Shown piece after piece: positions 47,986-59,987 of a stretch of 63,575 nt of DNA. How positions within the stretch are numbered: the first letter of the stretch is position 1; each line of letters begins with the position of its first letter. Source of the stretch: Bacteroidota bacterium (GTDB lineage: Bacteria > Bacteroidota > Bacteroidia > UKL13-3); NCBI GenBank assembly GCA_027491355.1, contig JAIXWI010000010.1:1-63575 (forward strand), read 5' to 3'. The position numbers and the translations under genes were made by a program. The notes below the pieces were generated by a model, which ran no database searches, had not been told where the DNA came from, and saw only the letters and a program-made list of their open reading frames with translations.

Positions 47986-48474
47986 ATGTTGAAAAAATTT
48001 ACCATCTTAAGTTTCATACTTTTCATTGTTTCTCATCAAATCAAAGCGCAAGACAATACTGCCGCAAACTTTGAAAATCAGCTTAACCTACTGAGAAACA
48101 AAATTCAAACACAGCAAAAACTTATCCACAAAAATGCAGAAACATTGCGTTTACAGGATGATAAAATTGTCGAGTTAAACAACCAATTGTCAACATTGAA
48201 AAATGCTCAATCAGAGCAGTTAACCTCTTTTGAATCCAAGATTTCAGGAATTTTAGGTGATTACAACACTAAAATAGATGATCAAAATAAAGTAATTGAA
48301 GACTTAAAGGCTTCATTGAGTAAAAAAGATTTCAATTTATACTTATACATAGCAATTGCATTGTGTGTTGCTCTAGTTCTCTTTGTTTATTTCATGAAAA
48401 TGGCAACCCAAAAAGCCATCACACAACAAAGCAAAAATTGGTCAGATTTCTTAACCTACATCGTAAAAAGATAA
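47986..48474 (+). CDS. Exported coiled-coil protein with one membrane helix
   Basis: A 162-residue protein of unknown function that opens the variant motor cluster. A signal peptide (ending QIKAQ) precedes a periplasmic coiled coil (about 25-110). A membrane helix (NLYLYIAIALCVALVLFVYF, about 116-137) is followed by a short cytoplasmic tail. Its place corresponds to gldK in the classic gldKLMN order, but it has none of the SUMF fold of GldK. A TAATTTCG element upstream (about 47958) is a plausible -7. GldL-like follows after 9 bases. Confidence 0.6.
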   Translation: MLKKFTILSFILFIVSHQIKAQDNTAANFENQLNLLRNKIQTQQKLIHKNAETLRLQDDKIVELNNQLSTLKNAQSEQLTSFESKISGILGDYNTKIDDQNKVIEDLKASLSKKDFNLYLYIAIALCVALVLFVYFMKMATQKAITQQSKNWSDFLTYIVKR

Positions 48475-48483
48475 CTTAATTAT

Positions 48484-48984
48484 ATGGCAATCAAAGCAAA
48501 AGGAAAATTAGATCCGATAACCTTTATCTATGGTTTCGGTGCAGCAGTCATTTTGGTAGGATCTATGTTTAAATTCATTGGATGGGATTATGCCAATGAA
48601 TTGTTTATTGCCGGTTTGGCAATTGAAGCGGTGGTTTTTATCATTTCTGCTTTTGAAAGAAAAGTAGATGACAAAGAATACCATTGGGAAAATGTGTTTC
48701 CACAATTAGAACAAGAAAACACTGGAAACAGTCCTGATACCAGCTCTTATGCAAAAGCAATGGAACAATTGTCTGAAAGTATCAAAAGTTTTTCAGGAGA
48801 AATCACCCATTTGAATCAGTCACTAGCTCATATCAATAAAGATATGCAGGCTAACAATGAGTTAACCAAAGCAATGAATGATAAAGTTCAAGAATTGAAC
48901 AAACAAATGGAAGAGTATGCGGGATACATGCAACAAATGAATGCCAAATACAAAGACTTTCTATCAGGTGGTAAATCAATGTAA
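48484..48984 (+). CDS. gldL: GldL-like motor protein
   Basis: A 166-residue inner-membrane protein of the GldL family, whose founder forms the proton channel ring of the T9SS/gliding motor. Two membrane helices are seen: VILVGSMFKFIGWD region and GLAIEAVVFIISAFE. Glu48 in the second helix aligns with the essential Glu49 of Flavobacterium GldL, and Glu58 with Glu59; Lys30 aligns with Lys27. The family His of the first loop is replaced by Gly33. The rest is a cytoplasmic coiled coil (about 80-160), shorter than usual. The stop overlaps the next ATG by one base. Confidence 0.82.
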   Translation: MAIKAKGKLDPITFIYGFGAAVILVGSMFKFIGWDYANELFIAGLAIEAVVFIISAFERKVDDKEYHWENVFPQLEQENTGNSPDTSSYAKAMEQLSESIKSFSGEITHLNQSLAHINKDMQANNELTKAMNDKVQELNKQMEEYAGYMQQMNAKYKDFLSGGKSM

Positions 48985-50381
48985 TGGCAGGTTCAACAGT
49001 TAAAATACATCGCTCAAGGGCACTGAGTTTTAAGAAATTATCATTCTTATACTTGGTGTTTATTGTGTTTTATTTTTTCTCAACCTCTGGTGAATACATC
49101 AAGCAATACCAATCCATGAACAAGACTCAAGTCATGCTCAATGGAATTTTACAAGCGGAGTTAGAAAAAATAGACTGCAAGAACTTGGAAGATATTGCAT
49201 TGAAAAACAAGACCATCGATTTATACAACCAACTTGAAAACATCCACAAAGATTTACAAGATTACATTGGGAATTCTATCACTCAAGATGAAAAGCTTAA
49301 AGAAACAAAATTCAGCAAACAATTTGTAGAAAATGGAAATTATGACAATTTAAAGTCAGCAATTTTAAATTATGCTGAAATGTTTCCTGCTGAACAAAAG
49401 CAATCTATGATTTCAGCGTTTGGAATAACAGCTGAGAACAAAAACAAATTGTTTACCAATATTCCCAATGGTTTTATGGGTAATGTATTTAAAAATTACC
49501 AAACAATTGTACTTAAAAACGCCATTCGGTTTTTGAATGAAAAAACACCAAAAAATGAAGTTGCACCAAAAAATCCTAAAGTAGATTTAGCTAACAAAAC
49601 GCAGCCGTTTCTTCAGTCTTTAAAATCCATATATTACTTGGGAGAGCAGGTACAATTTTCACTTTTTAGTAACAATGGTAGCCAACCTAAACTTCAAATC
49701 AATGAGGTTCAAATTGCGGTAAAAGCAATGAATGAAAACACTTATACTGCGATTTGGAAACCAACAAAACCAGGTTTTTATACTGTTGTAGCTGCTAATG
49801 ATTTAAATACACAGTCTCAACAAATTGAGGTAAAATCTCTCGATTTAAAATTCCTAGAAAACACTCAAGAATTGGTTTGTTTCATGAACGAACCATTTAC
49901 ACTTACGCCATATTTATCCAAAAATATAAACATCCGTGAATTAAAGTTCGTTTCAAAAGAAGCAAAAATTGAAATAGAAGAAAATCATTTAAAAATCACA
50001 CCTATTGTAGAGGGTCGCTTTAGTTTGGCTGTAAAGCTCGGGGATAAATTGATTGAAAATCTGTCCTTGTTTTCTAAAATTAATACCGCACCTACTGTAC
50101 TCATTAAAGATAAATACAATCAACTTACAAAAACCGCTAATGCACATGCTTTAACCAGTGACCATTCTGTTTGGCAAGTAGTTGCGTTTAACATGGTTTG
50201 TATTGAACCCGATGGAAAAAAACAAACTTTCCATTCAAACAACCGATTTTTAAATACTGAAATGTTGGAATGTCAAAAAAATATGCCTGAAGGTGCTAGT
50301 ATCATATTTGAACAAATAAAATTATTGTACAACGATGGTATCAAGACAACATCTGGCAGACCTGTTTATATTCAAAAATAA
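48984..50381 (+). CDS. GldM-like protein, first copy (no conserved Arg)
   Basis: A 465-residue protein related to GldM, the periplasm-spanning shaft of the gliding/T9SS motor. One membrane helix (LSFLYLVFIVFYFFS, about 19-33) follows a short cytoplasmic N-terminus. A helical region then covers about 40-200, and beta-rich domains about 210-465. At the position of the essential Arg9 of Flavobacterium GldM (motif RxKxIxLMYLV) this copy has Ser15 (SFKKLSFLYLV); the nearest Arg is at 12. It starts on the last base of the GldL-like gene and ends on the first base of the second GldM-like gene. Confidence 0.75.
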   Translation: MAGSTVKIHRSRALSFKKLSFLYLVFIVFYFFSTSGEYIKQYQSMNKTQVMLNGILQAELEKIDCKNLEDIALKNKTIDLYNQLENIHKDLQDYIGNSITQDEKLKETKFSKQFVENGNYDNLKSAILNYAEMFPAEQKQSMISAFGITAENKNKLFTNIPNGFMGNVFKNYQTIVLKNAIRFLNEKTPKNEVAPKNPKVDLANKTQPFLQSLKSIYYLGEQVQFSLFSNNGSQPKLQINEVQIAVKAMNENTYTAIWKPTKPGFYTVVAANDLNTQSQQIEVKSLDLKFLENTQELVCFMNEPFTLTPYLSKNINIRELKFVSKEAKIEIEENHLKITPIVEGRFSLAVKLGDKLIENLSLFSKINTAPTVLIKDKYNQLTKTANAHALTSDHSVWQVVAFNMVCIEPDGKKQTFHSNNRFLNTEMLECQKNMPEGASIIFEQIKLLYNDGIKTTSGRPVYIQK

Positions 50382-51784
50382 TGTCTGCATACGTTAAAAT
50401 AAAAAGAAGTAAAAATTTAAGGTTCAAGCTCATTAGCTTGATGTACCTTGTATTTTTAATGTTGTCGTTGATTCAGATACCAACTGATTGGCTTGCTAGC
50501 AATGCATTCATATATCCATATTTGAACTACCCAAAAACCAGCTATGATGCTGAAATGATTCAAGTAACAGCGGCAAAATTAAAAGCTATTGAGCCACAAA
50601 TGCATGTTGCCCTCGGTGTAGATTCAATAACTAAAGCCATCAAAGAGCCCAATGCATATGCTCCTACAGATATGTATTTTATCAAAAATGGCCAAGCAGA
50701 GCCGGTATTCAATGCACTGATTGATTTAAAAGATTGGGTAAACAATGTCAATACCGATTCTGTAATCACATCCAATTTTGCATACTTATTTGAAGAAGAT
50801 TTAAAAAATGGCCTACAAAAAAATAATTTAAAAAGTTGGCAAAATTGGAAATGGAAACATGTTCCCGTTACAATGGCAGTAAACCTGTTTGAAGAAATTA
50901 AATTAAGAATTGACTTACTTGCTGCTGCTGTTCAACCAATTGACAAAAACAGTAGCAATGAAGAAACATCCAATGTATTCAACAGTCAAGAAAACCCTAA
51001 ACTGGTTCTTTTAAGCGAAAATGGGAAACTGAGAATTGGAGAGACCCTCAAATTCCATTTGTATGCTGATAGTTTGGTTGATCTTAAAATTAGAAAAAAC
51101 AATGTAGTTTTAGAGAACCAGCATCAATTTAATTCAGATACCGTACTTTTCAAACCTACTCAATCAGGAAATTACACCATTGACATTACTGGAACCAGAC
51201 TTCATGAAGTATTTGATGTAAATGTAGTGCCTGCAAGTATTTTGTCTGACAAAAACAGTACACTAAGAATTGCATACAAAGGCATTCAATACAAACAATC
51301 ATTACCTACTGGACTAAATTCAGCTTCTTTGTATGTTAATGGATTGAACAAGGGTAAGATTGAATCATCCAAGCAATTGAATTTTGTACCAAATCAAATT
51401 GGATGGAATGTTTTAGAGCTAAAATCTGCAAACAATGTATTGCTCTTAGACTCAATTTACGTAAAGCCATTGCCAGAACCCTATGTTTTAATTGAAGATT
51501 TACCAAATTTCAGTATCAGTAAAAAACGTTTAGAGCAACAAACTACTTTGAAACTTTTTGCAACTCATCCTTCATTTGAAAAACAAACCTACCAAATAGA
51601 ATCTTTTGAGTATGAAATTCCTGGTACATCCATCAATTCCGATAAAGTACAAGGAGCATTGTTTCCAGTAACAGAAGCATTGAAAAAAAGCAATGTTTCC
51701 TATATCATCTTTTCAAAACTTGTTATCAAACAGGGCAATGAAAGTAAAACGTTAACCGAACCCATTGTAGTTAAAATTCTTTAA
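50381..51784 (+). CDS. GldM-like protein, second copy (Arg retained)
   Basis: A 467-residue paralogue of the preceding gene: both begin with VKIxRS and share LMYLVF/FLYLVF after a basic stretch. Here the position equivalent to GldM Arg9 is Arg14 (RFKLISLMYLV). One membrane helix (about 17-33), a helical region to about 190, then beta domains follow. I infer that it forms a heterodimer with the first copy. Its stop is 2 bases from the next gene. It could instead be an independent homodimer. Confidence 0.75.
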   Translation: MSAYVKIKRSKNLRFKLISLMYLVFLMLSLIQIPTDWLASNAFIYPYLNYPKTSYDAEMIQVTAAKLKAIEPQMHVALGVDSITKAIKEPNAYAPTDMYFIKNGQAEPVFNALIDLKDWVNNVNTDSVITSNFAYLFEEDLKNGLQKNNLKSWQNWKWKHVPVTMAVNLFEEIKLRIDLLAAAVQPIDKNSSNEETSNVFNSQENPKLVLLSENGKLRIGETLKFHLYADSLVDLKIRKNNVVLENQHQFNSDTVLFKPTQSGNYTIDITGTRLHEVFDVNVVPASILSDKNSTLRIAYKGIQYKQSLPTGLNSASLYVNGLNKGKIESSKQLNFVPNQIGWNVLELKSANNVLLLDSIYVKPLPEPYVLIEDLPNFSISKKRLEQQTTLKLFATHPSFEKQTYQIESFEYEIPGTSINSDKVQGALFPVTEALKKSNVSYIIFSKLVIKQGNESKTLTEPIVVKIL

Positions 51785-51786
51785 CC

Positions 51787-53841
51787 ATGAAACACACTAT
51801 TCGTATCCTATTTATATTTACACTCTGTTTTCAAGCATTCAATTTGAAAGCTCAAGACACAATTGTAATTGAACAATCAAAAGTTATTTCCAAAGGTCAG
51901 AGTTTTGAGGTAGCTGCAGGCACTACAATTGTTTTCATGCCAGGTGCTAAAATTTGGGTAGAAGGAAGTTTGAACTTAGCTGGTACTGCAGCAAAACCAA
52001 TTACAATCATTTCAAAAGATGCCAAAGAACCAGGTTCTGGTATTGTCATCAACGGTCAATCCTATCAACAAAATATTCAAATTGCCTATACCCATTTTGT
52101 TTCATTAGAACAAGCAATCAGGTTTGACCCCTTTTGGGCAAGAAAAATTGTAGATCTTGACCATGTAAAAGTAAGTCAGTCTGTTTACAATGAATCAAGT
52201 ATTTATGTAGCTGCTCCTTTTATTGACCACAATTACCCGCCTATTCGATTTTCTATTTCAGGCTTAGATTATTTTAACAACAATGCTGGTGTTTTCATTG
52301 AAGAATTCGGAAACAAATCTGTTCAATTCAATTTGAGTAACTTGAATTTCTTTGAAAATAAACTATCAACTTCAAACGAGGCAAGCGGTATTTTTAATTT
52401 ACAATTGACCGAAGCAACACAAAAACAAAAAAACCAACTGGACCAGCTAGCATTTAACCGAAACTTTCAAGGAAACAATGAAATTGGTTTAGCTGTTTTT
52501 GGCAATCAAGACACCATAACTGTTCAATCTGCAATGGGTGTTAATGGCACTATACCTGTTATAGATGCCAAATCAGATCCAAGACTTCCAACAGTTTCAA
52601 TTCAAAAACTAGACAATATCGTGTCTATGCAACGCGATAAATGCTTGATTCAAAAAATAACACACCAAAGAAATCAAATTGTTATACATTCAAATGCTGC
52701 ATGTGCAGTGAGCTACTTGAAAGACAGCAATGCAATGAATGTTCCATTCACAGTTAATAGAAATAAAGACAGCATCACTCTCAATTACACAGGAAATGCA
52801 ATTCCTGAAAAACTATGGATGAATGAAGAATTTTGGGCAATAGTACCTCCTCTCTCTCAGCTAGATTCTTCAAATGCTTTACAAAAACCTGAAAACAAAT
52901 TAGAAGAAAAAAAGGCACACGGATTTTGGGCCGATTCGTCTATGCTCAAAGAACTGAATTTATTTAAACCAAGCCTTGAAATTGGCATGTTTACTGGTAT
53001 TGCAGCATACATTGGAGACATCAAACCAAAATTTGGATTACCTGCAAATTACCATCTTTCCAATGGTATCAATATACAGTACCACCATAACAAACATGTT
53101 TCTTATCAATTCACATTTAACAGGGCTGATATTGGCTCTGATGACCCAACTGGCTTGTATTTGGCCTATTCTTCTTTGCCAATTTATGTAGACAAAGGGT
53201 CTGTAGCATGGAAAGTTCCAAGCTATAGAATGAACTTTAGAACAGAAATTTATGCTTTTGAATTGGGTACTACTTATTATTTTAATAGGTATATCATGGA
53301 AGACAAATCCGCAGCAAATTTGAAGGGTAAATGGGTAAACGGAATTGGAATGGGTATTGGTATTTTCAGGTTTGACCCATATAGGTACACTGTGTATAGC
53401 AAATATGCAGATGAGATACAGTGGGTTAGTTTAAGAGAAATGGGAACCGAAGGGCAAAATTTCTTACCTGGAAGGTCACAGTATGGAAAATATGCCATGA
53501 ACTTGAACTTGCATTATGAACTGAATTTTTGCTATGAACGTTGGAAATTCAAAACTGAATTGAGAGGAGTCATTACCTCAACCAATTATTTAGATGATAT
53601 GGGTGATGGTTATTACTATGGAAATGATTACCAAAAATGGGCTGCAACAGTGCCAGAATGGGGAAATTATGTAGATAAAAACGGTAATTCAGTGCCAATG
53701 GTACAAGTTTTTCCTGATTTTGGTAAAGTAGCTTCCAAAAGAACTTACAGCCTCCTACCTGATGGGTATGTACAATTCCATATGGGCTTAAGTTATGACA
53801 TTGGAGCTCCATGGAAAACAAACAAAAAAGCAAAAAAATAA
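51787..53841 (+). CDS. Outer-membrane protein: beta-helix-like plus barrel
   Basis: A 684-residue protein with a signal peptide (ending LKAQ). The first part (about 25-370) has a right-handed beta-helix character (KPITIISKDAKEPGSGIVI, YTHFVSLEQAIRFD, YFNNNAGVFIEEF). The last 290 residues resemble a DUF6089-type outer-membrane barrel, with IGMFTGIAAYIGDIKP, GTEGQNFLPGRSQYG, TNYLDDMGDGYYYG and LSYDIGAPW at the end. It sits where gldN would be, immediately after the two GldM-like genes (2 bases), so I infer it is the outer-membrane partner of this motor. Confidence 0.7.
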   Translation: MKHTIRILFIFTLCFQAFNLKAQDTIVIEQSKVISKGQSFEVAAGTTIVFMPGAKIWVEGSLNLAGTAAKPITIISKDAKEPGSGIVINGQSYQQNIQIAYTHFVSLEQAIRFDPFWARKIVDLDHVKVSQSVYNESSIYVAAPFIDHNYPPIRFSISGLDYFNNNAGVFIEEFGNKSVQFNLSNLNFFENKLSTSNEASGIFNLQLTEATQKQKNQLDQLAFNRNFQGNNEIGLAVFGNQDTITVQSAMGVNGTIPVIDAKSDPRLPTVSIQKLDNIVSMQRDKCLIQKITHQRNQIVIHSNAACAVSYLKDSNAMNVPFTVNRNKDSITLNYTGNAIPEKLWMNEEFWAIVPPLSQLDSSNALQKPENKLEEKKAHGFWADSSMLKELNLFKPSLEIGMFTGIAAYIGDIKPKFGLPANYHLSNGINIQYHHNKHVSYQFTFNRADIGSDDPTGLYLAYSSLPIYVDKGSVAWKVPSYRMNFRTEIYAFELGTTYYFNRYIMEDKSAANLKGKWVNGIGMGIGIFRFDPYRYTVYSKYADEIQWVSLREMGTEGQNFLPGRSQYGKYAMNLNLHYELNFCYERWKFKTELRGVITSTNYLDDMGDGYYYGNDYQKWAATVPEWGNYVDKNGNSVPMVQVFPDFGKVASKRTYSLLPDGYVQFHMGLSYDIGAPWKTNKKAKK

Positions 53842-53956
53842 TTTCAGCAAGAAACCTACAATTCAAATGAATGGGTTACTTTTTGAGTTATTTATTTCAT
53901 AGTCAACAACGTATTTTCTCAAAAATATCATTATTTCGTAGGTAAGCTTTCGCTTC

Positions 53957-56401
53957 ATGAACAAAATCCTACAAGTACTCATCTTTGTATTATTCTATTG
54001 CTATCCATTTGGATTGGTTCAATCACAACCTTGTGTAAACACATTGGTAAATGAGCCAGTTCCTTCAAAATGTTTCGAAATAGTTAGTATGTTGGTAGAT
54101 GCTTGCGACGGCAGCAATGAGGGTAAAAACGAAATGATTCGCCTCAAAATAGGCCCGAACCCTCTATTGGTATCTTCTTTAGCTCCAGGACCTTGTACCC
54201 CAGGAGTAACTGTTAACTGGGGTTCAGGATCCGGATCCAACCCTTTTTTAGGATGGGCAAATTTTAATATTGCTGATAACATAAAAATTGACACCATCAA
54301 CAAGCGCATCAAAGCTGCCGGTAATTGCGGTATATTAATACCTAGAAATAAAACAGATTTTATTCCAGCAGGTGCAAGTTTAATCATTGTTACAAGTACT
54401 GCCTACAACCCAACAGCTCATGACTTCAGTGGTTTACAAGACACATTGTATGTAATCCTACAAGTTGCAGATGCCTCTGGCAATCAAGGTGGACATTTTG
54501 CTAACTTCAATGCATCATCAGCAACCAGAAAATTGGTAATGCTTTATGGAACCTGTGGTGACACTGTCTTGTATGACATCAGTAAGTTATTGAATCAAAG
54601 TCTTGTAAAAGGTCAAGAAGATGGGGCAACTGTAAATTACAGTTTCAATGGAAATGCAACATACAGCAATTCGGGATGCAAAATACCAATCACCCAACAA
54701 TCTATTGATGCTGGTATTGTTCCACCAATTATTTGTGCAGGCGGCAGCATCAGTTTAAATGGTAGCTATACAGGAAACCACTGTTTTGCATGGAGAGCAG
54801 AAAATACAGCAGCTGGAACATTTGCAGACAGCTTGAATTTATTCACCACTTTTAACCTCAAAAAAAGTTTTATTGGCACCTGTAAATTGTATTTGGTTGC
54901 TAAATTAAATTGTAAAGATTACAAGGATTCAGTTAGCATAACCGTACTCACACCTACCGATAGCATCCGCATCCAAGCTATGGATACCATTTGGTGTGCA
55001 TACAAACAAATTCCTATTAAAACAATCAGCACCAGCAATGCTGCTGTATTTTGGAGCAGTTCTGGATCGGGCAAAATTGATTTCCCGAATCAGTTCAATA
55101 TAGTTTACACCCCAGATACTTTAAAAGATACAGGAATAGTTGTGTTCAAAGTGACACAAAATACTGCATGTGGAACCATAGAAGACAGCATTCGATTGAC
55201 TTTTGTTGCTGCTGATGCCACATTTAATCCTGATCAAATGATTGTTTGTAGGGGTGATGAAGCATTTTATTTGAATCCGAAACAAGTAGGTGGAGTTTTC
55301 TATGGCCCAACAGGGATGTTAGATAAACTGCAATTCAATCCTACAGATACTGGTATTTACAAGCTTACCTATGTTGTATCTGTATTGGGTTGTTCAGATA
55401 CTGTTACTAAAGAAATTAAGGTCAACGGATTTTATACGGATCAAGTGAATACCTTGAACCCAAGTTGTTTTGGCATGCAAAATGGTAGCATACAAATTGA
55501 TTTGCTTGCAGGTAAACCTCCTTTTGTTTTTCAATGGAACAACCAAATAAACGGGTTGAACCAAATGCAGCATTTAAAAGCAGGAAACTACCACATTCAA
55601 ATTACAGACAATGACAATTGCAGAGATACCTTTACAGTGCAATTGAATGAACCACAAGTTCTGAAATTGAATAAAAACTTGACACAACCTACATGTGGAA
55701 TGAATAACGGCAGTATTTTAGTTCAAGTGATTGGTGGTACCCTTCCCTATCAATATTCACTCAACAATATGCCAATTTTTACTAATAGTATTGAGCAGTT
55801 AAATTCTGGTAAATACATTTTAACTGTAGTTGACAATCAAGCATGTGTAATTGTTGATACAAGCGAATTACAAACCTCTACTCCTGTTATCATTGCAACA
55901 AATGTACTAACAGATACTTGTAATGCTTACAAAGGCTCAGTAAGTGTAAACATTCAAAGTGGTGTTGGCCCTTTTAGCTACAATTGGACCCCATACTATG
56001 CGCCTAATCCAAGTCAAAATAATATAGCTGGTAAAAGTGCTGGTATGGTAGTTGTAACAGACGCAAATCGTTGCATTGACACCGCATATTATGAGGTTCC
56101 CGATGTTTGTAAAAATCAAATTTGGATTGCCAATGCATTTCTCCCTTCAAATGCTAACAATACAAACATTCAGTTCGGGCCAGTAACAGCTTTTCCTGAA
56201 AGTATTTTGCGTTATCGGTTCAGCATATATAACCGATGGGGACAACTTGTTTTTGAAAGTACAGATTACAAAAATCGTTGGGATGGACGTGTGAATGGTA
56301 TTGAAGCTGCCTCAGATGTTTACTTCTATGAATTACAAGTTCGCTTCCAAAACGAAAGTTCAGAGGAGCTATTGAAAGGGAATGTGACCCTTATCAGGTA
56401 A
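53957..56401 (+). CDS. Giant secreted protein with CHU_C type B sorting domain
   Basis: An 814-residue protein with a signal peptide (ending VQSQP). An N-terminal domain contains the KCFEIVSMLVDACDGSNEGKNEM motif pattern (about 38-60) found in CHU_C-type proteins. Middle units of SprB-repeat type follow (for example NPSCFGMQNGSIQIDLLAG and TQPTCGMNNGSILVQVIGG, about 500-650). The last 90 residues are the gliding-motility-associated C-terminal domain: NAFLPSNANNTN, RFSIYNRWGQLVFEST, NRWDGRVNG, DVYFYELQV. Proteins with this ending are exported by type IX secretion. It is 115 bases after the motor cluster and could be its cargo. Confidence 0.85.
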   Translation: MNKILQVLIFVLFYCYPFGLVQSQPCVNTLVNEPVPSKCFEIVSMLVDACDGSNEGKNEMIRLKIGPNPLLVSSLAPGPCTPGVTVNWGSGSGSNPFLGWANFNIADNIKIDTINKRIKAAGNCGILIPRNKTDFIPAGASLIIVTSTAYNPTAHDFSGLQDTLYVILQVADASGNQGGHFANFNASSATRKLVMLYGTCGDTVLYDISKLLNQSLVKGQEDGATVNYSFNGNATYSNSGCKIPITQQSIDAGIVPPIICAGGSISLNGSYTGNHCFAWRAENTAAGTFADSLNLFTTFNLKKSFIGTCKLYLVAKLNCKDYKDSVSITVLTPTDSIRIQAMDTIWCAYKQIPIKTISTSNAAVFWSSSGSGKIDFPNQFNIVYTPDTLKDTGIVVFKVTQNTACGTIEDSIRLTFVAADATFNPDQMIVCRGDEAFYLNPKQVGGVFYGPTGMLDKLQFNPTDTGIYKLTYVVSVLGCSDTVTKEIKVNGFYTDQVNTLNPSCFGMQNGSIQIDLLAGKPPFVFQWNNQINGLNQMQHLKAGNYHIQITDNDNCRDTFTVQLNEPQVLKLNKNLTQPTCGMNNGSILVQVIGGTLPYQYSLNNMPIFTNSIEQLNSGKYILTVVDNQACVIVDTSELQTSTPVIIATNVLTDTCNAYKGSVSVNIQSGVGPFSYNWTPYYAPNPSQNNIAGKSAGMVVVTDANRCIDTAYYEVPDVCKNQIWIANAFLPSNANNTNIQFGPVTAFPESILRYRFSIYNRWGQLVFESTDYKNRWDGRVNGIEAASDVYFYELQVRFQNESSEELLKGNVTLIR

Positions 56402-58270: not shown

Positions 58271-59104
58271 TTAGAGGCTATAAGCCCTCACAACCATGTA
58301 AATCCAAGCGGTTGTACCCCCATTGTGACCAGATGCAGAAGCGTCAAAAGTGCCATTGGCATTTAGAGGCAATACTTGAGAGGAATACCATTCCCCATAA
58401 TATGGGGAGTAATTGTCTGCATCTCCATGGTAGGTTAATTTGATGCAATTTTTTACAAACCCTGCAGCAAACTGTGTGGAGGGTTGCGATCCTCTATTGC
58501 CAACCCAGTTCAATACATTGGTTACACCTTTCCCTAATAACATATTGAAATGATCTGATGTACCATTGGTAATAAATACATCAACCAATAAATACCTAGC
58601 GTTGGAAGGCACTCCCGAAACACTGATATTTACCGGTGTTCCATTGATAACTGAAAATTCTCTGATCAATGGTGAAGCAAATTCTTGCCATTGAATACTT
58701 GGATTGCCATTGATGGCAATGACTCCATTTACATCAAGCGGATAGGAAGGATTGGTTTTACCAATTCCAACATTTCCACTATTGTAAAAAATGTCTGAAC
58801 CAGATTGAGTCCATTCAGCATTTAAACGCAACCAATTTGGAGCAGCAGCTGTTCCTGCATTGTAATACAAACCTGAATTTCCATCTGTTTGAAAAACCAT
58901 TAACCCAGTGGCAGGATTAGAAATGCTTGCCCTTTGAGCAGCAGTCATTCTGGGTGTTAACAAACCTCTATTTGTGGAACTTATTTCTAACAAAGCAGAG
59001 GGATCGGGAGAATTGGTTCCTATACCTATTTGTGCAATTGTGGTATCCATATTTAAAAAATTGAACACCAAACTCAATGCTATCAAATGTTTTATTCTGT
59101 TCAT
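58271..59104 (-). CDS. Secreted protein of a tandem paralogous pair, copy 2
   Basis: A 277-residue exported protein, clearly paralogous to its upstream neighbour. A signal peptide is followed by the Bacteroidota module QIGIGTNSPDPSALLEISS and LLTPRMTAAQRASI. A linker repeats NVGIGKTNPSYPLDVNG, and the C-terminal 150 residues (from about 130) include RYLLVDVFITNGTSDHFNML and end WIYMVVRAYSL. The fold may be a surface-bound beta domain like those attached to tail-fibre-like proteins in this phylum. Function is unknown. It lies 10 bases from the upstream copy. Confidence 0.65.
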   Translation of the reverse strand: MNRIKHLIALSLVFNFLNMDTTIAQIGIGTNSPDPSALLEISSTNRGLLTPRMTAAQRASISNPATGLMVFQTDGNSGLYYNAGTAAAPNWLRLNAEWTQSGSDIFYNSGNVGIGKTNPSYPLDVNGVIAINGNPSIQWQEFASPLIREFSVINGTPVNISVSGVPSNARYLLVDVFITNGTSDHFNMLLGKGVTNVLNWVGNRGSQPSTQFAAGFVKNCIKLTYHGDADNYSPYYGEWYSSQVLPLNANGTFDASASGHNGGTTAWIYMVVRAYSL

Positions 59105-59114
59105 CTTATTTTTC

Positions 59115-59987
59115 TTATAAACTATAAGCCCTAATTACCAAATAAACCCAGCCAGTAGCAGACACAAACATTCCACTTGCCAATGCATCAAAACCTCCTG
59201 TATTTTTAAGCGGGATGATTTGCGAATTATACCAATTACCAAAATAAGGCGTATACCCGTCCAGTTCACCTTGGTATGTTAATTTTACACAGGCACCTAA
59301 GGCACTTGGTGTCATTGATGATGAAGGCCTTGCTCCTCTACCATTTGTCCAAGAAACAGGGTTGACTCCTAAGTTCTTTCCTAGTAACATATTGAAATCA
59401 TCTGAGGTTGGAAAAGTGATAAATACATCCGCTAAAATGTACCTTGCACCTGCAGGAATACCTGATGGATTGACCGCAATAGTTGAAAAATTATTAAAAC
59501 TAAATTCGTGTACCAAAGGCTCTGCAAAATCAACCCAATTAATGGTTGGATTGGCATTGATGGCTATTTTACCATTTACATCTAGAGGGTAAGTAGGATT
59601 AGCTTTTGAAACACCCACCTTTCCCGATGTAAAATTTAGGCCAGTACTTTCCATTACCCAAGAACTTTGTAATAATTTCCATACAGGAACTGCAGCAGTA
59701 CCCTCGTTATAATAATAGCCTGCTACATCATCTGTTTGATACACCAATAAACCTTTTGCAGGCTGGGTAATTGCAAGGCGTTGATTTTTGGTCATTCTTG
59801 GACTCAGAACACCTTTAGCACTGTGCTTGAGTTCAAGCCTTGAACTGCTATCTGGTGTTTGGGTGCCAATTCCAACTTGGGCGTTGAGGTTGTACGGTAT
59901 GAATTCAATGAATAACAACACCAAGAAAAACCTCGTGAGTTTTTGAAATTGATTACGGCTTAAGAGCAATGATTCAGTTGAAAACAT
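59115..59987 (-). CDS. Secreted protein of a tandem paralogous pair, copy 1
   Basis: A 290-residue paralogue of the next gene with the same layout: signal peptide ending LNAQ, QVGIGTQTPDSSSRLELKH, LSPRMTKNQRLAI, KVGVSKANPTYPLDVNGK, RYILADVFITFPTSDDFNML and the ending WVYLVIRAYSL. The ATG at 59987 is supported by a -7 element 5 bases upstream. It is the first gene of a two-gene transcript. Confidence 0.65.
   Translation of the reverse strand: MFSTESLLLSRNQFQKLTRFFLVLLFIEFIPYNLNAQVGIGTQTPDSSSRLELKHSAKGVLSPRMTKNQRLAITQPAKGLLVYQTDDVAGYYYNEGTAAVPVWKLLQSSWVMESTGLNFTSGKVGVSKANPTYPLDVNGKIAINANPTINWVDFAEPLVHEFSFNNFSTIAVNPSGIPAGARYILADVFITFPTSDDFNMLLGKNLGVNPVSWTNGRGARPSSSMTPSALGACVKLTYQGELDGYTPYFGNWYNSQIIPLKNTGGFDALASGMFVSATGWVYLVIRAYSL

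Follow-up and report, generated by a model that had tools for sequence, protein, structure and literature searches.

A putative second GldLM-type motor in Bacteroidota with two unequal GldM homologues and its own outer-membrane partner

GldLM is known as the motor that powers type 9 secretion and gliding. An operon in which a gldL-like gene precedes two gldM-like genes, with neither gldK nor gldN among its members, raises the question of whether it is a displaced piece of this engine or a motor of another kind. Such an operon lies in a stretch of 63,575 nucleotides from an uncultured Bacteroidota bacterium, the whole of which we refer to as the window, and had been proposed in a preliminary description to encode a variant envelope motor. 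Its five genes (47986–53841, all on the plus strand) are separated, in order, by a 9-base gap, a 1-base overlap, a second 1-base overlap and a 2-base gap, in agreement with the tight spacing given there, and a gene for a CHU_C-domain protein starts 115 bases after the last of them. The features are as follows:

47986–48474, plus strand: CC, a coiled-coil membrane protein (alignment, topology)
48484–48984, plus strand: GldL/PorL homologue (TIGR03513, PF22827, tree)
48984–50381, plus strand: MA, the first predicted GldM-type protein (hhalign to GldM and MB, residue counts, domain conservation)
50381–51784, plus strand: MB, the second predicted GldM-type protein (hhalign, AlphaFold model with PDB search, residue counts)
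51787–53841, plus strand: OMP, a predicted beta-helix plus PorG/DUF6089-type barrel (model, PDB search, PF19573 bridge, barrel profile, cysteine count)
53957–56401, plus strand: a protein resembling T9SS type B cargo, with a CHU_C domain and three SprB repeats (domain searches; neighbour in genus g1)

The reading that we favour, with a probability of roughly 60%, is that the operon encodes a second, non-T9SS motor of the GldLM type, in which MA and MB would together form the axle and whose arm would act directly on the OMP.

The GldL homologue scored 85.2 bits against TIGR03513, for which the curated cut-off is 68.3, and matched PF22827 with an E value of 2.8e-22; its build is that of two transmembrane (TM) helices and a cytoplasmic coil. 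The membrane glutamate reported to be kept was recovered in the alignment, where E48 falls at the position of E49, the proton-channel glutamate, and E58 at that of E59, and Lys30 is also present. Functional roles have been described for both E49 and E59 (PMC8986121). In the tree, the module GldL stands apart from canonical GldL with a support of 100.

Neither MA nor MB gave a significant match to Pfam or NCBIfam, both lying below every sequence-family cut-off, and a TIGR03517 search of their own genome found the canonical GldM copy alone and missed them. A PDB sequence search returned only weak GldM/PorM matches (E 0.05–0.5), and profile–profile comparison found the two colinear over their full length with GldM and with each other. 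In hhalign, MA matched canonical GldM at 94.7% (6e-8), MB matched it at 96.9% (1.9e-10) and the two matched one another at 98.6% (8.7e-16); as unrelated controls, comparisons of the OMP profile with MA or canonical GldM scored about 0.1%. The AlphaFold model of MB (pLDDT 75.8, pTM 0.41, with domain orientation uncertain) consists of a TM helix, a helical D1 and three beta domains, and its top PDB matches were GldM 6ey4 and PorM 7cmg and 6ey5, with PorM at a Z of about 11; this fold comparison covers MB, and MA is assigned by profile comparison. Divergent relatives of the module pass the Pfam GldM cut-offs. These results point to MA and MB as GldM homologues over their full length, in keeping with the adjacent GldM-like pair of the preliminary description. 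Elsewhere, short proteins of about 225–240 amino acids match canonical GldM at two loci without a full-length GldM (L115 2643–4181; L116 6435–7796), and the canonical GldM search returned many partial matches of this short kind on the C-terminal half of the profile.

CC, previously described as a coiled-coil membrane protein, indeed has a signal peptide, a periplasmic coiled coil and one TM helix (about residues 115–137), as well as a short cytoplasmic tail that contains a conserved W/F, and searches of the curated Pfam and NCBIfam collections placed it in no family. A CC-type protein lies upstream of GldL in the examined two-GldM loci, including distant ones without a profile match, and none was seen in the one-GldM loci. 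CC is a possible anchor or regulator of GldL, the anchoring role being a guess. Defence had been listed among the potential functions of the operon; PADLOC matches were confined to the coiled coil, with none to MA, MB or OMP, so that the module does not match the ZorA/ZorB/ZorC families of the Zorya defence motor, and this role was rejected as unsupported.

What is new here is that the two GldMs of the module are unequal. R9 of GldM is the axle arginine. Arginine occupies this position in all 38 MB sequences, in 26 of 26 canonical GldMs and in all six single GldMs, and in none of the 45 MA sequences, while a basic residue at position 12 is found in 43/45 MA and 0/38 MB sequences; the Y17 equivalent is kept in all sequences but one. 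In the window, Arg14 and Tyr22 of MB match R9 and Y17, and MA, in which Tyr17 is kept, has no R9-equivalent arginine and carries its basic residue a turn of the helix further on, at position 12. We had considered MA as a dead subunit, a view that the basic residue at position 12 led us to soften, since MA need not be inert. The last domain (D4) is better conserved in MA than in MB (identity 0.396 versus 0.263), a difference of 0.09–0.18 in 200 of 200 resamples of 22 paired sequences, whereas the TM segment is the better conserved in MB (0.649 versus 0.600). This pattern suggests that the drive helix may reside in MB and the target arm in MA. In a Bacteroidales MAG, the first of two GldMs (L160 8540–10060) carries Gln in place of R9 and a Lys at position 12; it shows the MA swap independently, its duplication being a separate one.

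The same residues bear on a reading in which one GldL serves two homodimeric motors, MA2 and MB2, with separate tasks or mutual regulation. Canonical GldM is a homodimer, both MA and MB keep Tyr17 and the TM helix, and MA has its basic residue at position 12, all of which would suit such an arrangement; however, an MA without R9 and an MB with a less conserved tip look complementary, and no complete two-GldM locus was found in which the two are separated or unpaired. We consider two homodimeric motors unlikely.

The OMP was said to combine a beta-helix with an outer-membrane barrel, and its model and PDB search recovered both: a signal peptide precedes a beta-helix (residues 25–352), a linker and an 8-stranded barrel (396–673). 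The beta-helix is predicted to be periplasmic because the barrel has an even number of strands. The match of the window OMP to PorG/DUF6089 is sub-threshold, its relatives pass PF19573, and a profile of its barrel finds separate PorG-like proteins in most genomes of the class. PorG is bound to GldK by a disulfide through a required C-tail cysteine and is thought to carry force (PMC12635249). A C-tail cysteine was found in 0 of 36 OMPs, and we regard the barrel as a predicted relative of PorG that lacks the GldK-binding cysteine. In encoding a beta-helix and a PorG-type barrel of its own, the module agrees with the earlier suggestion of a distinct outer-membrane partner. In one distant relative (L238 7991–10196), the OMP is divided between two overlapping frames, one for its beta-helix half and one for its barrel half; either the gene is disrupted or the protein is made in two pieces.

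To place the operon relative to the T9SS, we searched its genome (2.44 Mb in 44 contigs) for the canonical genes. A single, complete porP-gldK-gldL-gldM-gldN cluster lies on contig 34; GldM, GldK and GldN each occur once above cut-off, with no extra gldN, and SprA is present. The reported absence of gldK and gldN from the module holds as well. With the canonical set complete elsewhere, the window operon is therefore additional and a candidate second motor; homology to GldL and GldM holds, and the clades are separate, which bears out the proposal of a motor distinct from that of the T9SS with GldM doubled. All 27 tested module-bearing genomes also have SprA and GldN, a co-occurrence that fits independence and cooperation alike, and the module could still feed the T9SS. 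Were it an accessory T9SS motor that drives the usual ring or track of GldK and GldN, the OMP serving in it as another form of PorG, both this co-occurrence and the PorG-type barrel would be expected. Against this, nearly all members of these groups have a T9SS in any case, canonical GldM exceeding the cut-off in 65 of 68 genomes, the tail cysteine of PorG is missing from the OMP, which has its own periplasmic beta-helix, and the genome has no extra gldN; we judge an accessory role to be quite improbable. PorG-like genes also stand in tandem beside uppS-like and bamA-like genes at other loci (L241 5271–7051; L242 5628–8240), as two adjacent copies in this genome or as three.

Within the window's family, MA was found in 21 of 64 genomes and MB in 21, spanning three genera. 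Named genomes contain at least 51 loci, all in MAGs, as counted by a scan with two short peptide patterns that undercounts; 40 of these have two GldMs, 7 reach a contig edge after the first and 4 have one. One-GldM forms, comprising GldL, one GldM and the same OMP, are found as well in other families sampled from the class, and 15 of the 395 class genomes, which belong to five families, contain full-length relatives of the OMP. A phylum-wide GldL scan was set aside as a measure of spread, its best scores, bar the window, resembling canonical flavobacterial GldLs. In the GldM tree, module and canonical sequences split at 99, and the MA (97) and MB (96) clades derive from one old duplication, since which the two have remained a pair. 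The Bacteroidales pair arose separately, with its six rows together at 99 and one shared origin rejected (p 0.025). The sporadic occurrence within the family (21/64), together with the split OMP frame of one distant relative, might suggest a decaying T9SS paralogue without function, but the frames are intact and the functional residues are invariant across deeply diverged lineages, making decay very hard to credit. Downstream of a one-GldM module, a gene at L112 10349–12331 encodes PD40 repeats and an OmpA domain with a weak TPR match, a PorE-like architecture.

Of the six-gene order put forward in the preliminary description, five genes recur in other genera and the CHU_C gene does not. The five-gene order is above chance, because it recurs across genera while the flanks vary; no flanking genes are common beyond close relatives, and a promoter scan gave matches no more frequent than in shuffles. 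The CHU_C/SprB-repeat gene follows the operon as described, but it is a neighbour only in near relatives (L031 and L118) and is not conserved beside the operon in other genera; it was rejected as a component and is a genus-level neighbour outside the conserved module. Further along the window (58271–59987, minus strand) are two tandem, similar predicted secreted proteins.

Drawing on the homology, gene order, residue asymmetry and separation from T9SS genes that these comparisons establish, we propose the following mechanism for the second motor. GldL would form a proton-driven ring in the inner membrane, within which one MA and one MB would make up an axle whose arm spans the periplasm; MB would give the drive helix with its conserved arginine, and MA the tip that contacts the target, the better conserved of the two. 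By pushing directly on the beta-helix that the OMP has in the periplasm, the arm would move or strain the PorG-type outer-membrane barrel, with no ring or track of GldK and GldN involved, and CC would probably anchor or gate GldL. The stoichiometry, the MA/MB heterodimer and the contact between arm and OMP are what we infer here, and complex formation, rotation and proton flow in the module are likewise putative. For the stronger form of this reading, the odds seem about even: that the genes of this rotary motor fix its axle as a heterodimer, in which drive helix and target arm belong to different paralogues, that it acts directly on a PorG-type barrel independently of the T9SS track, and that the separate Bacteroidales duplication (Q9 and K12 at one locus) is an early stage of such a division.

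The most likely output, which we hold only weakly, would be to exert force on the outer membrane and in this way to move or energise some component of the surface or envelope, in parallel with the T9SS. As a special case, the arm might pull on the outer membrane for maintenance or uptake, in the manner of a Tol/Ton-like energiser, rather than move a surface machine. The module stands as a cassette by itself, accompanied by no cargo gene consistently, and there is a precedent in AglRQS, where two axle homologues go with a single ring protein (PMC9389320), although a Pfam search of the module found no TonB-dependent receptor, Pal or peptidoglycan-binding domain; this variant is a minority possibility.

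The module resembles the GldLM/PorLM of the T9SS in its GldL family with E49/E59 equivalents, its GldM fold, its adjacent L-M order and the R9 and Y17 kept in MB. It differs in forming a separate clade with two unequal GldMs and no gldK or gldN, adds a beta-helix and barrel partner and a coiled-coil protein, and is present in addition to a complete canonical set. The OMP shares with PorG (DUF6089) its family and 8-stranded outer-membrane barrel, but has a fused N-terminal periplasmic beta-helix, lacks the C-tail cysteine and is encoded with the motor. AglRQS of Myxococcus gliding likewise has one ring-protein gene and two different axle-protein genes, a likeness of gene arrangement alone, but belongs to the TolQ/TolR rather than the GldL/GldM lineage, and an axle heterodimer is not established there either (PMC9389320). 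In the literature that we searched, no description of such a second GldLM-type motor was found. If there is indeed a second GldLM lineage with its own outer-membrane target and without GldK/GldN, the engine would be a reusable part, and the work of this motor family would extend beyond powering type 9 secretion. Were the axle indeed composed of two unequal proteins, nature would have supplied a way to test what each of the two axle sites does in a rotary motor, a question that AglRQS still poses too.
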